From assembly GCA_937952875.1 (NCBI GenBank), contig CALFDI010000193.1, positions 1-11,737 of the forward strand: DNA of 11,737 bases, in the 5' to 3' direction. Position numbers and translations under genes: made by a program. Numbering within the stretch: the stretch's first letter is position 1; every line of letters starts with the position of its first letter. This DNA comes from an uncultured Verrucomicrobiales bacterium (GTDB taxonomy: Bacteria > Verrucomicrobiota > Verrucomicrobiia > Verrucomicrobiales > Akkermansiaceae). The notes below the pieces were generated by a model that was given only the letters and a program-made list of their open reading frames with translations, did not search any database and was not told the DNA's origin. This document shows positions 1 through 6,592 of this stretch, one piece after another.

Positions 1-1663
1 ATTTTTTACAGACTTGGAGGCCTGTCATTTCAGGCATCATAAAGTCTAACAAAACGACATCTGGCCGATAATGATCGACTAAATCGTAAGCTTCTTGCCC
101 ATCCGCAGCTTCTATCACGTTATGCTTCTGTTTAATGGAGTCTGCGAGCATTGAGCGGATTTGAGGCTCATCATCTGCTATAAGTATTGTAAGATCACTT
201 TTTTCAGAAGGAATGACAGCTTCAGCCAGAGGGCGAGCCACTTCATCAGATGCTGCTGTGATCAGTTGTGCCTGTTTATGCATGGATTCGACAGCATCTA
301 CAGTGGTATCATGACGATAAATATCTGATTGAGATGCCTTTTCAGCAGGCAGGGTAATTCTAAATAAAGTGCCTTTTCCTTCTTCACTTTCTACGGTTAC
401 CTCACCGTTCATCACATCGACTAAATTTTTCGTAAGAGACAGTCCTATCCCTGACCCTCTAAACTTACGTTGCATCGAAGAATCAGCCTGCCAAAATCGC
501 TGGAACACATTTTCAAGCTTCTCTTTATTCATGCCTATTCCATTGTCTTCTACGATCAATGTGAGATTTCCACTTTGGTAATCAGCTTTTAAATTTATGA
601 CTCCACCAGGCTCTGTGAACTTAATCGAATTAATGAGCAGATTATAAATAATTTTCTCTAACTTGCTTATATCTACGAGCAAGGCAGGAAGCTTCATTGA
701 TTCTTCATAGCTCAGCGTAATTGATTTACGCTCGGCTAAATAAGTAACATTTGCTACGAGTCCTTTTAAGAAAACAGAAGTCTCTATAGCTTGCGGAGTA
801 ACTTTCTCCTGACCTTGATCGAATTTCACAAGGTCTAGTAGATTATTAATAAGTCCTAGGAGACGAAGTCCGTTATTCTGCACGGAGGCCAGCATTTCGG
901 ATCGTTCCGCGACATCTTTATCTTCTTTCTTTTCTTGAATAGTCTCAACTGTTCCCAAAATAACAGTGAGCGGAGTTCGGAGTTCGTGGCTAATGTTTGC
1001 AAAGAATTGCGTTTTCGCTTCGTCTAGCTCTTGTAACTGAAGATGGTTCTCTTCGAGCTGTTTTTTCGCAGCCCCAAGGTCCATACTGAGCATAAATTCT
1101 TTGTAACGTGACTTGAGATATAGATGACTCCCTATAATTACGAAAATACTCGTAAGAATCATGAAATAGAGATTATTAAACAAAAGGCGTCGGTCAACTG
1201 CTCCGTCTTGAATATATGCAATGATTATATAGCCTAAGAAGGTGATCCCGAACTGTATGATGATAGACTTTAACGGCCACCAGAGCGTTACAGCCATACC
1301 GACAAAGACTAAATTTAGCCCTGCATAGTAAGTCGACTTCACTCCCTCCGTCTCATAGATCATCCATAAAATCGCTCCTAGAGGAACAAAAGCTAGCAAC
1401 TCAAGGAGAGCATGCTTCAACCCATCGACCTTCAAATACTTAATAAGCATGAAGAGCAATATGAGAAGCATGGAAGATGCCGAACGAATCCAAAAGAACT
1501 CCCAAAGGTGCTCAGGATAAACAAAGTAATCTAAGCAGCTTCCGACCATCATACCAACGGCCGCCACGAGTGACATATCCGTGGTATTCTTTAGCCGTAT
1601 CGCCATCTCGTGTTTACGAAATGATGCGTCAGCTTCAGCAGACCTGTTGGCTGAATTAAGCAT
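1..1663 (-). CDS. Six-transmembrane hybrid sensor histidine kinase with C-terminal receiver domain (partial)
   Basis: Inner-membrane two-component sensor, read leftward; 554 codons are visible and the 3' end lies outside the window. About six hydrophobic segments fall between residues 28 and 184 with no large periplasmic loop, so the signal is probably sensed in or near the membrane. A short helical linker (195-215) follows. The kinase core is complete: H box FFANISHELRTPLT with phospho-acceptor His226, N box around Asn341 (NLLINSIKFT), G1 VEDNGIGM, F box FQRFW, and G2 GSGIGLSL. After a linker (about 440-490) comes a receiver domain with acidic Asp497/Asp498 and phospho-acceptor Asp540 in LLDFMMPEMTG; its conserved Thr and Lys are beyond the edge. 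The ATG directly follows the stop of the methyltransferase gene, so translation is probably coupled. No clear ribosome site is seen, and an internal ATG at codon 20 is an alternative start. By context it resembles a PhcS-like sensor, but this is inference. Confidence 0.93.
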   Translation of the reverse strand, partial: MLNSANRSAEADASFRKHEMAIRLKNTTDMSLVAAVGMMVGSCLDYFVYPEHLWEFFWIRSASSMLLILLFMLIKYLKVDGLKHALLELLAFVPLGAILWMIYETEGVKSTYYAGLNLVFVGMAVTLWWPLKSIIIQFGITFLGYIIIAYIQDGAVDRRLLFNNLYFMILTSIFVIIGSHLYLKSRYKEFMLSMDLGAAKKQLEENHLQLQELDEAKTQFFANISHELRTPLTVILGTVETIQEKKEDKDVAERSEMLASVQNNGLRLLGLINNLLDLVKFDQGQEKVTPQAIETSVFLKGLVANVTYLAERKSITLSYEESMKLPALLVDISKLEKIIYNLLINSIKFTEPGGVINLKADYQSGNLTLIVEDNGIGMNKEKLENVFQRFWQADSSMQRKFRGSGIGLSLTKNLVDVMNGEVTVESEEGKGTLFRITLPAEKASQSDIYRHDTTVDAVESMHKQAQLITAASDEVARPLAEAVIPSEKSDLTILIADDEPQIRSMLADSIKQKHNVIEAADGQEAYDLVDHYRPDVVLLDFMMPEMTGLQVCKK

Positions 1664-3061
1664 TTAAGACCGGTCTGTGTGAGTTAGCTCTAGAAAAAGG
1701 TTTACGCCCGTTTCATCATGGACGACTTCCGATGCGATATTTCCTTTTGGAGTAAGATCCTTCATGTCGTTATCATCTCGGTAGATCAAATTCCATTCTA
1801 CGAGATATTCCATCAAATTAATGGTCGGGTTATTCTTCGCGACATTCGTCACGACAACAATTCCCTCCTTATGCACCATATCGCAAAACATTGAGACGAG
1901 CTTCGCACACACTTTCTGCGACAAGTAATCGAACAGTCCAGCACAATAGATGATATCATACTTCCGATCAATCCGTGATCTACTCGCTTCTTTTAAGAGC
2001 TGATGAACCGATTTCAGGATAAAATTGATATTGCACTTACTCCCTTGTCTCAACCTCTTACGTAAGACGGATTCGGTATAATCGATGGTTTCTTGACTGA
2101 AATCAAGTAGGTCAAAATCAATAAATTCTGCACAATCATCATCCAGCACATGCTGAATCTCCATTGCAGGACCACAACCTAGATTGAGAACTTTTAATCG
2201 CCTTCCTTCACGCGCCGCCTTTTCCCCCTCTCTAAGCAGGAGCTTGACCAAATATTTTATGCGATTTCGATGAGCTTCTGCTGCTGGTAATTTTAAAAAC
2301 GTGTGATCTAGTAATTTTGCAAATAAGTTCGCTCCATTATATCCATTCTTTAATATCATGTTCACCATTTCATAATCACCTGCATAACCTAATGGCTTAA
2401 CAAATGTTCTATAACAAAATGGTGACTTCATTAAGAAAGGGTGCGTGAGGCGGCGAACGTATGCTTTATGAGTAGAAGCGACTTCAGGGTCCACTTCTCC
2501 TGCTTTTTTTTCTAGGTCTTCCATCACAACCATGAGCTTTTCATCGATTTGCTCCCCCAAGTCATCGATCACTTTTCGCTCTAGTTCAATCCGATCGCCT
2601 GCTAATGTCGACCGCAAGCCAAAGTCGACTTCCTCTAACCATTTCGACAATCCTAACAGTGTATTTTCGCAATTAGTGACGGATATTTTAAAAGGATCAA
2701 TGACCTGATTCGACTTTTGCCAATCGCCTAGAAACTCAGTCAGTTTTGAGCCGATTTTATCTCCACGAATCAAATTCAAGAAATCAAGCTCTTGCCAAGA
2801 ATCCCCAAGAGATGCTTCACAGACCAAGAAAATACCAGTGTTCACGATACTACTGACGATGGCCTTACCTGAATACAGAACGCGATCTTCTGAGAAAATG
2901 CGGAAGTCTTCGAGAACTTCTGACGTTTGAACGATGCTGTAAGGATTATAGACCTCAAAGACGACCGTATAACGCTCCATGCGCAAAACGCTGGCGTTTA
3001 ATTCACCTCCTTGACTGTTTTTACACGAAATTGAGAGAAGGTTAATATTTTGGCGATTCAT
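1664..3061 (-). CDS. PhcB-like class I SAM-dependent methyltransferase with PilZ-like N-terminus; candidate fatty-acid methyl ester autoinducer synthase
   Basis: A 465-residue cytoplasmic protein. The C-terminal half is a Rossmann-type methyltransferase: SAM motif I VLNLGCGPAME at 291-301, an acidic strand and helix LLDFSQETIDY at 318-328, and YDIIYCAGLFDYL at 368-380. Ahead of it is PLGYAGDYEMVNMIL (223-237), a signature I associate with proteins annotated as 'extracellular factor 3-hydroxypalmitic acid methyl ester biosynthesis' (PhcB of Ralstonia). PhcB methylates 3-hydroxy fatty acids to make the quorum signal. Residues 25-95 resemble a PilZ beta-barrel (VVFEV, then IVNTGIFLV) but lack a proper D/N-x-S-x-x-G motif. 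Residues 130-190 are helical and charged. The family assignment is from memory of the motif; the substrate is inferred. The ATG is the first in frame and has no Shine-Dalgarno sequence. It is the first gene of a two-gene or longer operon with the hybrid kinase. A methyltransferase acting on another lipid or small molecule is the main alternative. Confidence 0.82.
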   Translation of the reverse strand: MNRQNINLLSISCKNSQGGELNASVLRMERYTVVFEVYNPYSIVQTSEVLEDFRIFSEDRVLYSGKAIVSSIVNTGIFLVCEASLGDSWQELDFLNLIRGDKIGSKLTEFLGDWQKSNQVIDPFKISVTNCENTLLGLSKWLEEVDFGLRSTLAGDRIELERKVIDDLGEQIDEKLMVVMEDLEKKAGEVDPEVASTHKAYVRRLTHPFLMKSPFCYRTFVKPLGYAGDYEMVNMILKNGYNGANLFAKLLDHTFLKLPAAEAHRNRIKYLVKLLLREGEKAAREGRRLKVLNLGCGPAMEIQHVLDDDCAEFIDFDLLDFSQETIDYTESVLRKRLRQGSKCNINFILKSVHQLLKEASRSRIDRKYDIIYCAGLFDYLSQKVCAKLVSMFCDMVHKEGIVVVTNVAKNNPTINLMEYLVEWNLIYRDDNDMKDLTPKGNIASEVVHDETGVNLFLELTHTDRS

Positions 3062-3180
3062 TGTGTTTTAAGCGGATGTTGTAGTGTGCAGATCAAAGTA
3101 AAGAGCCTCTAGGCGTTTATTTACGTCTACCAGTTATCATGATCCCATGACAATCAATATCGATACAATAAAACCCCTTC

Positions 3181-3188
3181 ATTATAAT
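3181..3188 (-). promoter_or_regulatory. Candidate -10 box for the methyltransferase-kinase operon
   Basis: The minus strand reads TATAAT at 3186-3181, a perfect sigma-70 -10 hexamer, about 120 bases upstream of the methyltransferase ATG. No good TTGACA-like -35 box lies 16-18 bases upstream. The motif is part of a symmetrical ATTATAAT, so it also reads TATAAT on the plus strand. It is a weak assignment based on the hexamer and position alone. Confidence 0.25.
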
Positions 3189-3228
3189 ACCCATTCATAA
3201 TCACTTAGTTAGAGGTAAACACATCTTG

Positions 3229-3248
3229 GCATAAAGTAATCTTTATGC
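3229..3248. promoter_or_regulatory. Inverted repeat, candidate operator: GCATAAAG-TAAT-CTTTATGC
   Basis: Two perfect 8-base arms (3229-3236 and 3241-3248) flank a 4-base TAAT spacer, a symmetrical site of the size bound by dimeric regulators. A third copy of the half site, GCATAAA, lies at 3271-3277 in the same orientation as the left arm, 42 bases away (about four helical turns). There is no following T-run, so a terminator is unlikely. The site sits between the two divergent genes, upstream of the methyltransferase -10 candidate. Which protein binds is unknown; the neighbouring AraC-type protein and the kinase's response regulator are possible. Confidence 0.5.
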
Positions 3249-3536
3249 TTATAGCTTAAATCCTACAGACGCATAAAATAACTATCTATCTGTCCAGTCG
3301 TTAAGCCAGAGGCCTCCATTGATTCGATCAGCGTAAAGACGCCCTTCAGTTCCACCAAGGTTTGCGACTATTTAGATGAGAAGCTAATCGGTCCTTTTTA
3401 TTCAACTGTTCAAGAGATCGAGAACTCACGACTTGAACACATTGAAATGAGTTGATACTTAGAGTGTGTCCCTTGTCGTGCGGATAAATTCATTTCTCCG
3501 CGCCATTTTCTTACGAAACCCTGTTTATTTGCTTCT

Positions 3537-3947
3537 ATGAAACTTTCTCCTGAAAATGAGATTTTTTTCCAAAAAATTAACTCCCAAGTCGTTGCTAGCT
3601 TTCCCGCAGCAAAGGATGAACATATCAATTTCTTTGATCTCTGTTCTCATAACCAGTTTTGCCTTAAAGAAATAGCCAGTCAACTTAACGTGACAGGACT
3701 AGTCGTTCGGGAGCGTTTTAAGAAATTTTCAGGGATGACTCCGAAGGCGTGGATTAGAGAACAAAGAGTTCTCAAAGCGATACGGATGATTAAAGAAGAC
3801 ATCCCTATCGATGTGGTGATGGAGAGCCTCTACTACCACGATTATCCTCACATCTCTAAGGACATCAAATACATCACTGGCATGACCCCTAAGCAAATGC
3901 GCAAAGAGGTAAATGCCAGACAGACAGAGAAAATGCTTAGCTCTTAG
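3537..3947 (+). CDS. AraC/XylS-family HTH transcriptional regulator lacking a ligand-binding domain
   Basis: A 136-residue protein that is almost only a double helix-turn-helix AraC DNA-binding domain. The first HTH is at about 43-65 (LKEIASQLNVTGLVVRERFK), followed by the linking helix WIREQRVLKAIRMI. The second HTH is at about 91-113, ending in ITGMTPKQMRK, the usual closing 'G-x-T-P-x-x-x-R' of the family. Typical AraC proteins are about 250-300 residues with an N-terminal sensor domain; here only about 40 residues precede the domain. The same frame stays open upstream to 3282 except for a TGA at 3453-3455, so a truncated longer gene is possible. The ATG has no clear Shine-Dalgarno sequence. 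It is divergent from the methyltransferase-kinase operon and is a plausible regulator of it. Its 3' end overlaps the end of the convergent heme oxygenase-like gene by 11 bases. Confidence 0.82.
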   Translation: MKLSPENEIFFQKINSQVVASFPAAKDEHINFFDLCSHNQFCLKEIASQLNVTGLVVRERFKKFSGMTPKAWIREQRVLKAIRMIKEDIPIDVVMESLYYHDYPHISKDIKYITGMTPKQMRKEVNARQTEKMLSS

Positions 3948-4578
3948 GCGTTAGAGCTTTTGAAAGCTGGGCAAAGGCAGAAATGGCTTCATCTCTCGCC
4001 TTTAGCTTCATGGCATCGCTGCATTCGTAACGATCAAGCCAGATCAGAATATCGCGCCACATTTTATAAGTCTGCTTTCCGTAACCTCTGAGGAATGTTG
4101 TTTGTTCCTTAGTGATCCCTATGTCTGCTGCGATAAATGCAGCCGCCATATCACGGCCTAGATGCACACTGCCCTCTACGACATACACATAGCCTATCGA
4201 AGTCGCTAGGCACAATTCGGCGCATTTATCTTCATCCTGATTGAGTCTTTTTTCAGGTCCGGCATTCCCGAGAGATTCGAGGTCTTTCCTGATTTTACGA
4301 CACCTAGCGAGGCGTTCGGTCGTATGACTCAACCCTTCTTCTTCCAATAAAGGCCAACAAATCTTTTCCATGAGCGTCGAAATCGTCTGATGAAAGTCGT
4401 ATAAATGCTTTACGTAATGATCTCGTGTCACGAATGCATTATTCGTCATTACGGAAGAGCGAAAATCTTCATATAAGTCGGCTGTTGCTCCACGTAGAAT
4501 ATCTAAGAGACTGACATCTACTAAACTGAAGATAGCTGACTTAGGAAAGTTAGCATCTGGAATATCTGAACTGTTCAT
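3937..4578 (-). CDS. Heme oxygenase-like protein (BphO/HemO type) with Tyr in place of the proximal His
   Basis: A 213-residue all-helical protein resembling bacterial biliverdin-forming heme oxygenases, which open heme to biliverdin, CO and iron, often for a phytochrome chromophore or iron supply. Family-like features are the N-terminal helix LRGATADLYEDF, the distal-helix segment YVVEGSVHLGR (usually YVLEGS-x-LGG-x) and FLRGYGKQTYKMWRDI near the C-terminus. In the family the first helix normally carries the proximal heme ligand as T-x-x-L-H; here the equivalent residue is Tyr36 (codon 4471-4473). The distal Gly pair is also partly changed, with Gly136 and Gly141 kept and the middle Gly replaced by Leu. 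Activity is therefore uncertain. A GTG at 4587 could add three residues; I prefer the ATG because a G-rich ribosome site lies at proper spacing. No phytochrome gene is in the window. Confidence 0.72.
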   Translation of the reverse strand: MNSSDIPDANFPKSAIFSLVDVSLLDILRGATADLYEDFRSSVMTNNAFVTRDHYVKHLYDFHQTISTLMEKICWPLLEEEGLSHTTERLARCRKIRKDLESLGNAGPEKRLNQDEDKCAELCLATSIGYVYVVEGSVHLGRDMAAAFIAADIGITKEQTTFLRGYGKQTYKMWRDILIWLDRYECSDAMKLKARDEAISAFAQLSKALTPKS

Positions 4579-4582
4579 TGTG

Positions 4583-4592
4583 CTCACCCCCC
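4583..4592 (-). promoter_or_regulatory. Ribosome binding site deciding the heme oxygenase-like start
   Basis: On the minus strand GGGGGGTGAG ends four bases before the ATG at 4578, with the G-run centred about 8-12 bases upstream. The same run lies too close to the GTG at 4587 to serve it. This is the clearest Shine-Dalgarno-like sequence in the window, where most genes have none. Confidence 0.45.
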
Positions 4593-5225: not shown

Positions 5226-6545
5226 TTAGTTCAGCAGTCGCTCTTTATTTCGATCAGAGAGCTGGTCAGTTGATTCTATAAAATCTTTAGCTGCATCAGG
5301 ATCTGTCTCTAACCACTGGCCAGCTGCACGTCGAAGGCTTCGCTCTCGGCGGCTTTCATCTGATATGCTTAATGCGATATCAACGACGGCTTGTCCGTTC
5401 GAATTACGATTAGAAAACACATAATAAGCTGCAGCAGAGTCTTTTACGGGTCCTTCCTCTTGAGTGTTAATAAAGCTCTGAGCTACGCTATCGTTCTGTC
5501 TGGCGAGACTAGACATGACATTTCCCACACCATCGATCTGAGCCTCTTCCGAACCATTCTCCATCAGCCAGCTGAGCGCTTCCTCTGGGCGACTCCGACT
5601 CATTTGATCTGCAACTTCGATGATGGAATTATCACGTGTATCACCCTCTGACATGGCTAGTGACTTCTCCGCAGCAGATTCTACGTCAACAGCGGCTAGG
5701 CCTCTGATCATTGACTGAACAGCTTCATTTTTCTCATCTCCTGACAATGACTGCGTCCAGAGCTCAGCAGCATCAGGATCAGTTTTCCCCCAGCTTTCTG
5801 CAATTGACGAAACAGCACCTGTTCTGCCTTCGATCTCGCCTTCTTGAGCCAGCATCTGTGCCGCTCTCGCTGGATCGTCTGCAGCCACTTGCTGGAACAC
5901 GCCACTCACAGAGCTCGATACATCATCTCCAGTGAGGCCTTTTGACCATTGAAGAGCGGCGACTGGATCGACCCTAGCCCATTCCTTTGCAATCCCAGCT
6001 GCAGGACCGCCACCTCTGCCTCTGCGTCCTCCCCAGCCGCGGTTGCCAAATTCTGCTGTGTTTTCGATGTAATATTGAGCGGCATCTTCGGGACTTTCTC
6101 CGGCCCAGCTCTGTATAATCGTAGGTTTTACAAAGCGGCCGCCCATACCCATGGTATCTGTGTATGCCAGTGCTTCACGCGGAGCTTCTTCCCCCCAGCG
6201 AGAAAAGAGGAGATACGAGGCGATTATGCGCTCAGACCACGGGAGATCTTCAATTTTTCTCGCTTCATCTGCAAACAAAGCTGGATCAAGATTCTCATAA
6301 AATGACATCAACTTCTCCATCCGAGCCGTCTGGCCAGGAGAATTGAGAATATCTTCGCTCGTTTTATACTCCCGACTTTCGGTATTTGCAGCCTTTTCAG
6401 GAGCAATAGAACGCACTCGTTCACTTTTTGATGATGTTGCGATTGGAGATACAGTCGTATTCTCTGATCCGCTTTTCCCAACAAAGTATCCACCTGTTAA
6501 ACCTAACACGAGTGTCGCCACGGGCATATAAATCATCGTCTTCAT
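5226..6545 (-). CDS. Membrane-anchored DPxAA/W-repeat protein of unknown function
   Basis: A 439-residue protein with one N-terminal hydrophobic anchor (about residues 4-23, MIYMPVATLVLGLTGGYFVG), a Ser/Thr/Lys-rich linker, and then about eight to ten helical repeats of roughly 35-40 residues. The repeat core reads like 'W-[A/G]-x-x-[D/S]-P-[D/E/V]-x-A-x-x-[W/Y/F]': SWAGESPEDAAQYY, EWARVDPVAALQW, SWGKTDPDAAELW and QWLETDPDAAKDF. These are probably alpha-solenoid, TPR/HEAT-like repeats facing the periplasm and used for protein contacts. I know such proteins as common in Verrucomicrobia but not with a defined role. A Gly/Arg-rich stretch GNRGWGGRRGRGGGP interrupts the repeats at 6003-6047. A TTG at 6566 would add seven residues; the ATG at 6545 fits the anchor better. 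The gene follows the sulfatase by 47 bases and is probably co-transcribed, ending at the 5185-5214 terminator. Confidence 0.8.
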   Translation of the reverse strand: MKTMIYMPVATLVLGLTGGYFVGKSGSENTTVSPIATSSKSERVRSIAPEKAANTESREYKTSEDILNSPGQTARMEKLMSFYENLDPALFADEARKIEDLPWSERIIASYLLFSRWGEEAPREALAYTDTMGMGGRFVKPTIIQSWAGESPEDAAQYYIENTAEFGNRGWGGRRGRGGGPAAGIAKEWARVDPVAALQWSKGLTGDDVSSSVSGVFQQVAADDPARAAQMLAQEGEIEGRTGAVSSIAESWGKTDPDAAELWTQSLSGDEKNEAVQSMIRGLAAVDVESAAEKSLAMSEGDTRDNSIIEVADQMSRSRPEEALSWLMENGSEEAQIDGVGNVMSSLARQNDSVAQSFINTQEEGPVKDSAAAYYVFSNRNSNGQAVVDIALSISDESRRERSLRRAAGQWLETDPDAAKDFIESTDQLSDRNKERLLN

Positions 6546-6592
6546 AACAGATATATAACTGCTCAAATGGAGTGCTGTCGCACATTATTTTT

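Follow-up and report, generated by a model that had tools for sequence, protein, structure and literature searches.

Does a methyltransferase gene that directly precedes a membrane histidine kinase gene, the pairing of the Phc signalling operons of Ralstonia and Cupriavidus, mark a related system of cell-cell communication in Verrucomicrobia? The question is raised by the window, by which we mean the whole stretch of 11,737 nucleotides analysed here, bases 1-11737 of contig C193 in a 2.04 Mb, 72% complete assembly of an uncultured Verrucomicrobiales bacterium. Its minus strand encodes a PhcB-like methyltransferase and a PhcS-like hybrid kinase, which an earlier sequence-only reading had described as directly abutting. 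This was confirmed: on the minus strand the junction between the two open reading frames reads TCT TAA ATG, with the methyltransferase stop at 1664-1666, the kinase start at 1661-1663 and a gap of 0. The kinase gene is incomplete because the window begins at a contig edge. Our data indicate that the module is real, conserved and of the Phc type. The locus is probably a Phc-type sender-receiver module with a relay to a protein with a receiver (REC) domain and to an AraC protein.

Quorum sensing by fatty-acid methyl esters has been elucidated in Ralstonia and, to some extent, in Cupriavidus. Among the matches listed in the open-licence literature, there was no publication on a Phc system in Verrucomicrobia; two of the listed texts name both and treat them apart in the portions available, and the phylum name Verrucomicrobia is absent from a 2026 quorum-sensing review. 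If the proposed reading is true, a poorly understood bacterial group gains a concrete cell-cell signalling system. What is new is the way the receptor is built, together with a candidate for the output regulator and a polyketide-linked variant from which new signal molecules are predicted, and named relatives (Luteolibacter, Oceaniferula) are at hand for testing.

The methyltransferase and its kinase neighbour

The methyltransferase of the window is a full-length relative of PhcB, with 37-41% identity to 14 Burkholderiales rows of the alignment. The best plasmid match was a protein of Paraburkholderia graminis (38.8% identity, 96% coverage, N-terminal part included), whose gene is followed by kinase, REC and REC genes. 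At that locus (L002, 17457-25347) Pel-like exopolysaccharide genes come after the phc-like operon; PelD is named there, and the rest were read from product names and sizes. In a protein search with the window methyltransferase, 7998 candidates were scored and 4739 kept. Among the best 120 of these 4739, all organism-named relatives are Verrucomicrobia (Luteolibacter, with L. luteus and Luteolibacter sp. LG18, Oceaniferula, with O. spumae, Akkermansiaceae and others), with one exception named 'bacterium'. A JGI name, 'extracellular factor (EF) 3-hydroxypalmitic acid methyl ester biosynthesis protein', is given to 13 of the 120; it presumably stems from KEGG K19620 phcB. Identity with a quinone methyltransferase or a malonyl-ACP methyltransferase was rejected, as UbiG scored 21.8 bits against a cut-off of 102.95 and BioC, with 23 bits, was far under its cut-off. 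By homology and in the trees described below, the enzyme groups with Burkholderiales PhcB and not with quinone methyltransferases, as the sequence-only reading had proposed in calling it PhcB-like.

To describe the neighbourhood of the gene, 80 regions were fetched. A methyltransferase reading frame was found in 79 of them (L189 excepted), giving 80 rows with the window. In 78 of the 80 rows the next gene, in the same orientation, is of kinase type; the exceptions are L047 and L182, of which L182 has nothing but short frames. When starts are taken from the longest reading frame, none of 77 relatives has a gap above 29 nt. At this position the kinase profile matched in 74 of 79 relatives, compared with 32 of the 742 remaining genes in these regions; third genes, 41 of which match the kinase profile, are excluded from this comparison. 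The third gene is of REC type in 71 of the 78 kinase-bearing rows, with the window counted among the misses; the seven rows without it are the contig-cut window, L012, L162 and L184, and the uncut L172, L187 and L191.

The kinase was examined for Phc-specific features with a profile built from 78 Burkholderiales PhcS sensors. Its membrane part matched at 62 bits, a likeness beyond the sight of the sequence-only reading. In an eight-row alignment, the identity of the sensor domain to that of the window is 20-36% in the seven other rows. Over all reading frames of the surveyed loci, the sensor profile gave 84 matches at E up to 10. Of these, 77 are genes adjoining the methyltransferase, with a median of 85 bits and a minimum of 10.5; one in L189 (86 bits) lies beside a methyltransferase broken by an in-frame stop, and the remaining six score below 7 bits each. 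The kinase profile, on the other hand, matched 80 further reading frames away from the methyltransferase. Thus it is the sensor, and not the kinase, that is specific to the methyltransferase neighbourhood. The Pfam family MASE8 was rejected as a name for this sensor: in two relatives as well as in two kinases of Burkholderiales it stayed below the cut-off, and in the window it gave no match at E up to 1.

The pairing also holds across whole genomes. In a sample of 384 Verrucomicrobiia genomes, the methyltransferase (E up to 1e-15) was found in 89, the sensor (E up to 1e-6) in 90 and both in 84 (Fisher p 1e-70, kinship ignored), so that sender and receptor genes occur together in more than one-fifth of the sample, the window's genome included. 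Conservation of the pair in verrucomicrobial relatives, which the sequence-only reading had left to be checked, is therefore borne out. Five later-fetched methyltransferases, full-length or split (L214-L218), likewise have the sensor kinase and the REC gene. In a sample of the phylum, the sensor was found in 26 of 383 genomes, one of those outside Verrucomicrobiia. Both genes are absent in all 20 listed genomes of one genus of the window's family (g2), which we infer to be Akkermansia. A separate observation concerns L205, L206 and L207 (G036, G119, G186), which lie outside the window's family and encode PhcS-type sensor kinases without a methyltransferase.

Pfam and NCBIfam return generic models only, both for the kinase and for the methyltransferase, where they stay below the cut-off for the window protein. 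One might therefore suppose a generic methyltransferase that stands by chance beside a generic hybrid kinase. The conserved gene order, the neighbourhood-specific sensor, the co-occurrence and the agreement of the two protein trees speak against such a chance neighbourhood, which we reject as extremely improbable.

In an AlphaFold2 model of the methyltransferase (58 sequences; predicted local distance difference test score, pLDDT, 86.8), a class I methyltransferase fold is accompanied by a helical part and by six strands at the N-terminus. The closest Protein Data Bank (PDB) match was 3ocj, a Bordetella protein that is uncharacterised, and numerous other methyltransferases ranked after it. A PilZ identity for the N-terminal strands was rejected, since PilZ is absent from the first 25 of 40 matching families (58 members). 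Several variants of the enzyme were seen elsewhere. In L046 (G052, 2089-4146) a family methyltransferase shares one reading frame with an N-terminal receiver domain. On the Enterobacter ludwigii plasmid NZ_CP134637.1 (46779-47459), a stretch 27% identical to query residues 203-436 lies inside an annotated type I polyketide synthase. L208, L209 and L213 (genus g23) carry a second, diverged methyltransferase of 319 aa that lacks the N-terminal part, beside a PhcS-type sensor kinase and a REC gene; G042 has both methyltransferases on separate contigs (L210, L211).

The features of the window are collected in Table 1. In the intergenic region at 3062-3536 no convincing operator or promoter was found: promoter-like sites numbered 4 against 2.6 expected, and there were short repeats only. 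Two further minus-strand frames lie beyond it. The first (3937-4587), whose end overlaps the end of the AraC gene, encodes a weak heme-oxygenase-like protein (Pfam E=8.7e-4, below cut-off), and the second (5226-6566) is an open frame of 446 aa with no Pfam match at E up to 0.1.

Table 1. Features of the module in the window, with the evidence for each
Feature	Positions	Strand	Evidence
PhcB-like S-adenosylmethionine (SAM)-dependent methyltransferase, 465 aa, candidate signal synthase	1664..3061	-	open reading frame, alignments, trees, AlphaFold2 model
N-terminal six-strand region, residues 9-85, barrel-like by strand order, without Pfam name	2807..3037	-	model
KPLGYAGDY motif, residues 222-230, invariant in 58/58 alignment rows	2372..2398	-	alignment
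Class I SAM-dependent methyltransferase fold, residues 289-410, GCGPA and YCAGLFDY motifs	1832..2197	-	Pfam (below curated cut-offs), alignment, fold search
Junction: methyltransferase TAA, then kinase ATG at once	1661..1666	-	sequence reading
PhcS-like hybrid histidine kinase, cut by contig end, at least 554 aa seen	2..1663	-	open reading frame, Pfam, profiles
PhcS-type membrane sensor, residues 15-196, G..LDY.VYPE and S.YYAGLNL motifs shared	1076..1621	-	profile, 62 bits
Phosphoacceptor His226, first HisKA	986..988	-	residue check
Receiver Asp540	44..46	-	residue check
Divergent intergenic region between methyltransferase and AraC genes, 475 nt, presumably with promoters of both	3062..3536	.	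scans for promoter-like sites and repeats
Short AraC-type HTH_18 protein, 136 aa, divergent, candidate output regulator	3537..3947	+	Pfam; linkage in relatives

Receptor layout and candidate output

The window kinase has a membrane part and, by Pfam, HisKA (residues 216-284), HATPase (331-441) and the first half of a receiver, which starts at residue 493 and is cut off. Among 78 kinases, 64 are longer than 800 aa, eight have 430-500 aa and six are cut, split or odd. Six uncut long kinases were profiled and are composed of a PhcS sensor, a kinase, a receiver and a PhcS-type kinase, the last scoring 149-191 bits, while two short ones carry the sensor and the PhcS-type kinase, as in PhcS. A fusion of PhcS with PhcR was rejected as the origin of the hybrid. 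The C-terminal kinase matches PhcS (149-191 bits) better than PhcR (21-50 bits), and it seems likelier that a kinase-receiver module was inserted.

Downstream of the kinase, the REC gene was examined in four loci of the window's family (L029, L030, L037, L044), where only the REC half matches PhcR or PhcQ. In L041 and L198 the REC gene has a kinase part too, as in PhcR. The short AraC gene was searched with a profile built from the window, L035, L037 and L143, so that three of the counted loci are in the training set. Of the 21 loci fetched from the window's family, 19 gave a match: in nine the AraC gene is divergent and upstream of the methyltransferase, and in ten it lies downstream of the operon in the same orientation. 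L144 and L012, the latter a contig of 3.2 kb, gave none. The sensor kinase, the REC gene and a divergent AraC gene occur with no methyltransferase match in three genomes of this family (G033, G034, G392), and for G033 and G034 the methyltransferase stayed unmatched in a further search. Hence the AraC gene goes with the receiver side, and sender and receiver are separable. The short AraC protein is likely the output of the module in the window's family. A short AraC gene near Burkholderiales phc operons was considered and rejected: AraC matches occur in 21 of 80 loci, 20 of them in frames of at least 194 codons, the sole short one being a 96-codon frame at a contig edge (L051).

Taken together, the following course of signalling is proposed. 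As suggested by PhcB, the methyltransferase would methylate the carboxyl of a fatty acid or acyl chain and so make a diffusible lipid methyl ester. The neighbouring kinase may detect this ester through its membrane domain, which is homologous to that of PhcS. In the window's lineage, if the layout of the relatives applies, the inserted kinase would phosphorylate the built-in receiver and thereby tune the C-terminal PhcS-type kinase. The latter would in turn act on the REC protein encoded next, for which the gene is present in relatives. No DNA-binding domain is recognised in the REC protein, which probably binds a separate transcription factor, for which the short AraC protein is the candidate. 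We infer this last step from the analogy with PhcQ, which binds and stabilises PhcA in Ralstonia (PMC13320629).

Several observations weigh against this reading. The chemistry and function of the module are deduced rather than observed. The window kinase is of the long type and stops inside the receiver without reaching the PhcS-type kinase domain, and the rest of the gene was not located elsewhere in the window's assembly; two candidates for the missing end, on contigs C74 and C254, were rejected because they reach 83.2 and 88.5 bits with the PhcS-kinase profile, compared with 149-191 bits in the six long relatives. The C-terminal half of the REC protein in the four family loci matches neither PhcQ nor PhcR. 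Of the 58 loci outside the family, 56 lack the AraC link, and in the other two the match lies at least 3 kb away. The window methyltransferase carries Asn22 where PhcB has Arg22 in the alignment; a change of this arginine to cysteine delays Phc signalling in Ralstonia (PMC6989110). Finally, the methyltransferase occurs without the sensor in 5 of 89 genomes and the sensor without the methyltransferase in 6 of 90. Among the five methyltransferase-only genomes, G164 and G271 have split frames beside the enzyme, G214 starts at a contig edge, and G254 and G405 show a partial match to the last two-thirds of the methyltransferase with no kinase beside it.

Polyketide synthases and the nature of the signal

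In 12 of 79 loci, a reading frame of 1941-2134 aa with a KS motif lies directly upstream of the methyltransferase on the same strand, and most of these frames are still open where the fetched DNA ends. Pfam was applied to the frame in L196, which is a type I polyketide synthase with the order KS-AT-DH-ER-KR-ACP. The KS motif was found in none of the stretches examined at 80 Burkholderiales loci. In the 109-row methyltransferase tree, the 12 synthase loci form a clade (support 96) that is joined to Burkholderiales PhcB (99). A more careful tree of 50 rows (8 of the 12 synthase loci, 10 Burkholderiales, 12 of the window's family and 20 others) gave 98/96 for the synthase clade and 100/99 for its join with Burkholderiales. 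In the kinase tree, in which the window is represented by its sensor alone, Burkholderiales and the synthase loci form a group (95), and the 12 synthase loci by themselves have no clade support (0). The window's family is one group in the 109-row, 50-row and kinase trees (99; 100/99; 99). The methyltransferase and kinase trees thus agree on the window's family and on the group of Burkholderiales plus synthase loci. The outgroup of the methyltransferase tree consists of six long, distant rows, and the root, on which the direction of transfer between Verrucomicrobia and Burkholderiales depends, is weak.

The synthase loci bear on what the signal might be. Phc-like signalling could run on other chemistry, with another acyl or polyketide ester, varying by lineage, in place of a 3-hydroxy fatty acid methyl ester; this alternative overlaps with the proposed module, which leaves the exact ester open. 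Such a variation would fit the type I synthase upstream of the methyltransferase in the 12 loci, the diversity of the sensor domains and the report that the signal of C. metallidurans may be structurally different (PMC2864759). However, no polyketide synthase was found in the window or in the fetched stretches of its family, and we regard other chemistry as possible, if rather doubtful, here. It is a good deal less likely that the enzyme is a regulator which methylates a protein carboxyl in a CheR-like manner, or another intracellular target, and so tunes the neighbouring kinase, whose own input would be something else, for example the membrane state. Of 58 family members, 45 show weak CheR-type matches at E up to 5 (the best 3.4e-5; the window E=0.014); these matches and the shared reading frame of receiver and methyltransferase in L046 speak for such a role. 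On the other hand, PhcB of Ralstonia is required for the extracellular signal, as seen by deletion and a supernatant bioassay (PMC6989110), the kinase sensor is PhcS-like, the relay is kept without the enzyme at receiver-only loci, and the link to polyketide synthases points to a small acyl substrate.

Returning to the sender-receiver module, we tentatively suggest that the Phc system of Ralstonia and Cupriavidus might be a small offshoot of a wider family of signalling systems based on lipid methyl esters and found mostly in Verrucomicrobia, with signals of a new kind in one branch, where a dedicated polyketide synthase would build the acyl chain, receptors of the order sensor-kinase-receiver-kinase, output through a free-standing AraC HTH protein in the branch of Luteolibacter and Akkermansiaceae, and receiver-only genomes that listen to others; we lean slightly away from this wider view.

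Comparison with known systems

As a reference for Phc, Burkholderiales loci were collected in a genome scan whose alignment is headed by the P. graminis protein. The best 80 of at least 570 confirmed relatives all belong to Burkholderiales or to relatives such as Nitrotoga. By best match, none of the 80 lacks the methyltransferase, a PhcS-like kinase or a PhcQ-like REC gene, and the other REC gene is present in 76. In Cupriavidus necator UYPR2.512 (L104) the operon encodes the methyltransferase, the kinase, a REC-HisKA-HATPase protein and a REC protein, consistent with the four-gene layout described for phcB, phcS, phcR and phcQ (PMC8578825). This operon lies about 22 kb from fur, which a LysR gene adjoins; in C. 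metallidurans, phcBSRQ are Rmet_2949-52 and phcA is Rmet_2977, beside fur (PMC2864759). The kinase histidine is residue 233 in C. necator and 231 in three other Cupriavidus, close to H230 of PhcS (PMC11960443), and the C. necator methyltransferase has Arg22. The neighbourhood was verified for L104 only, and second copies may be among the 80 loci (L076 is on chromosome 2).

LuxQ-type hybrid kinases share the kinase-receiver layout with the window kinase. They have a different sensor and are not known to have a methyltransferase partner, and the LuxQ model scored far below its cut-off on the window kinase (181 bits compared with 1200). The JGI annotation names the same enzyme, but the methyltransferase alone, and leaves the sensor, the relay, the output and the polyketide synthase uncovered. 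Where the sequence-only reading spoke of a poorly described system, this stands for a Phc-related pair and not for the enzyme, already noticed under that name in 13 of the 120 relatives among the matches listed.

The closest known system is the Phc operon of Ralstonia and Cupriavidus. Relatives of the window share with it the gene order of methyltransferase, sensor kinase and REC gene, a homologous full-length methyltransferase and membrane sensor, the PhcS-type kinase domain and, in L041 and L198, a PhcR-like REC-kinase protein. The sequence-only reading was thus right to see the same pairing of methyltransferase and sensor kinase; the locus is nevertheless no copy of phcBSRQ, given the hybrid kinase, the different REC protein, the AraC gene and the polyketide clade. 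PhcS is a single kinase without a receiver, whereas the six profiled long verrucomicrobial kinases contain an inserted kinase-receiver module. The window methyltransferase lacks the Arg22 of PhcB, and the regulator linked to the module in the window's family is a short AraC protein instead of the LysR protein PhcA.

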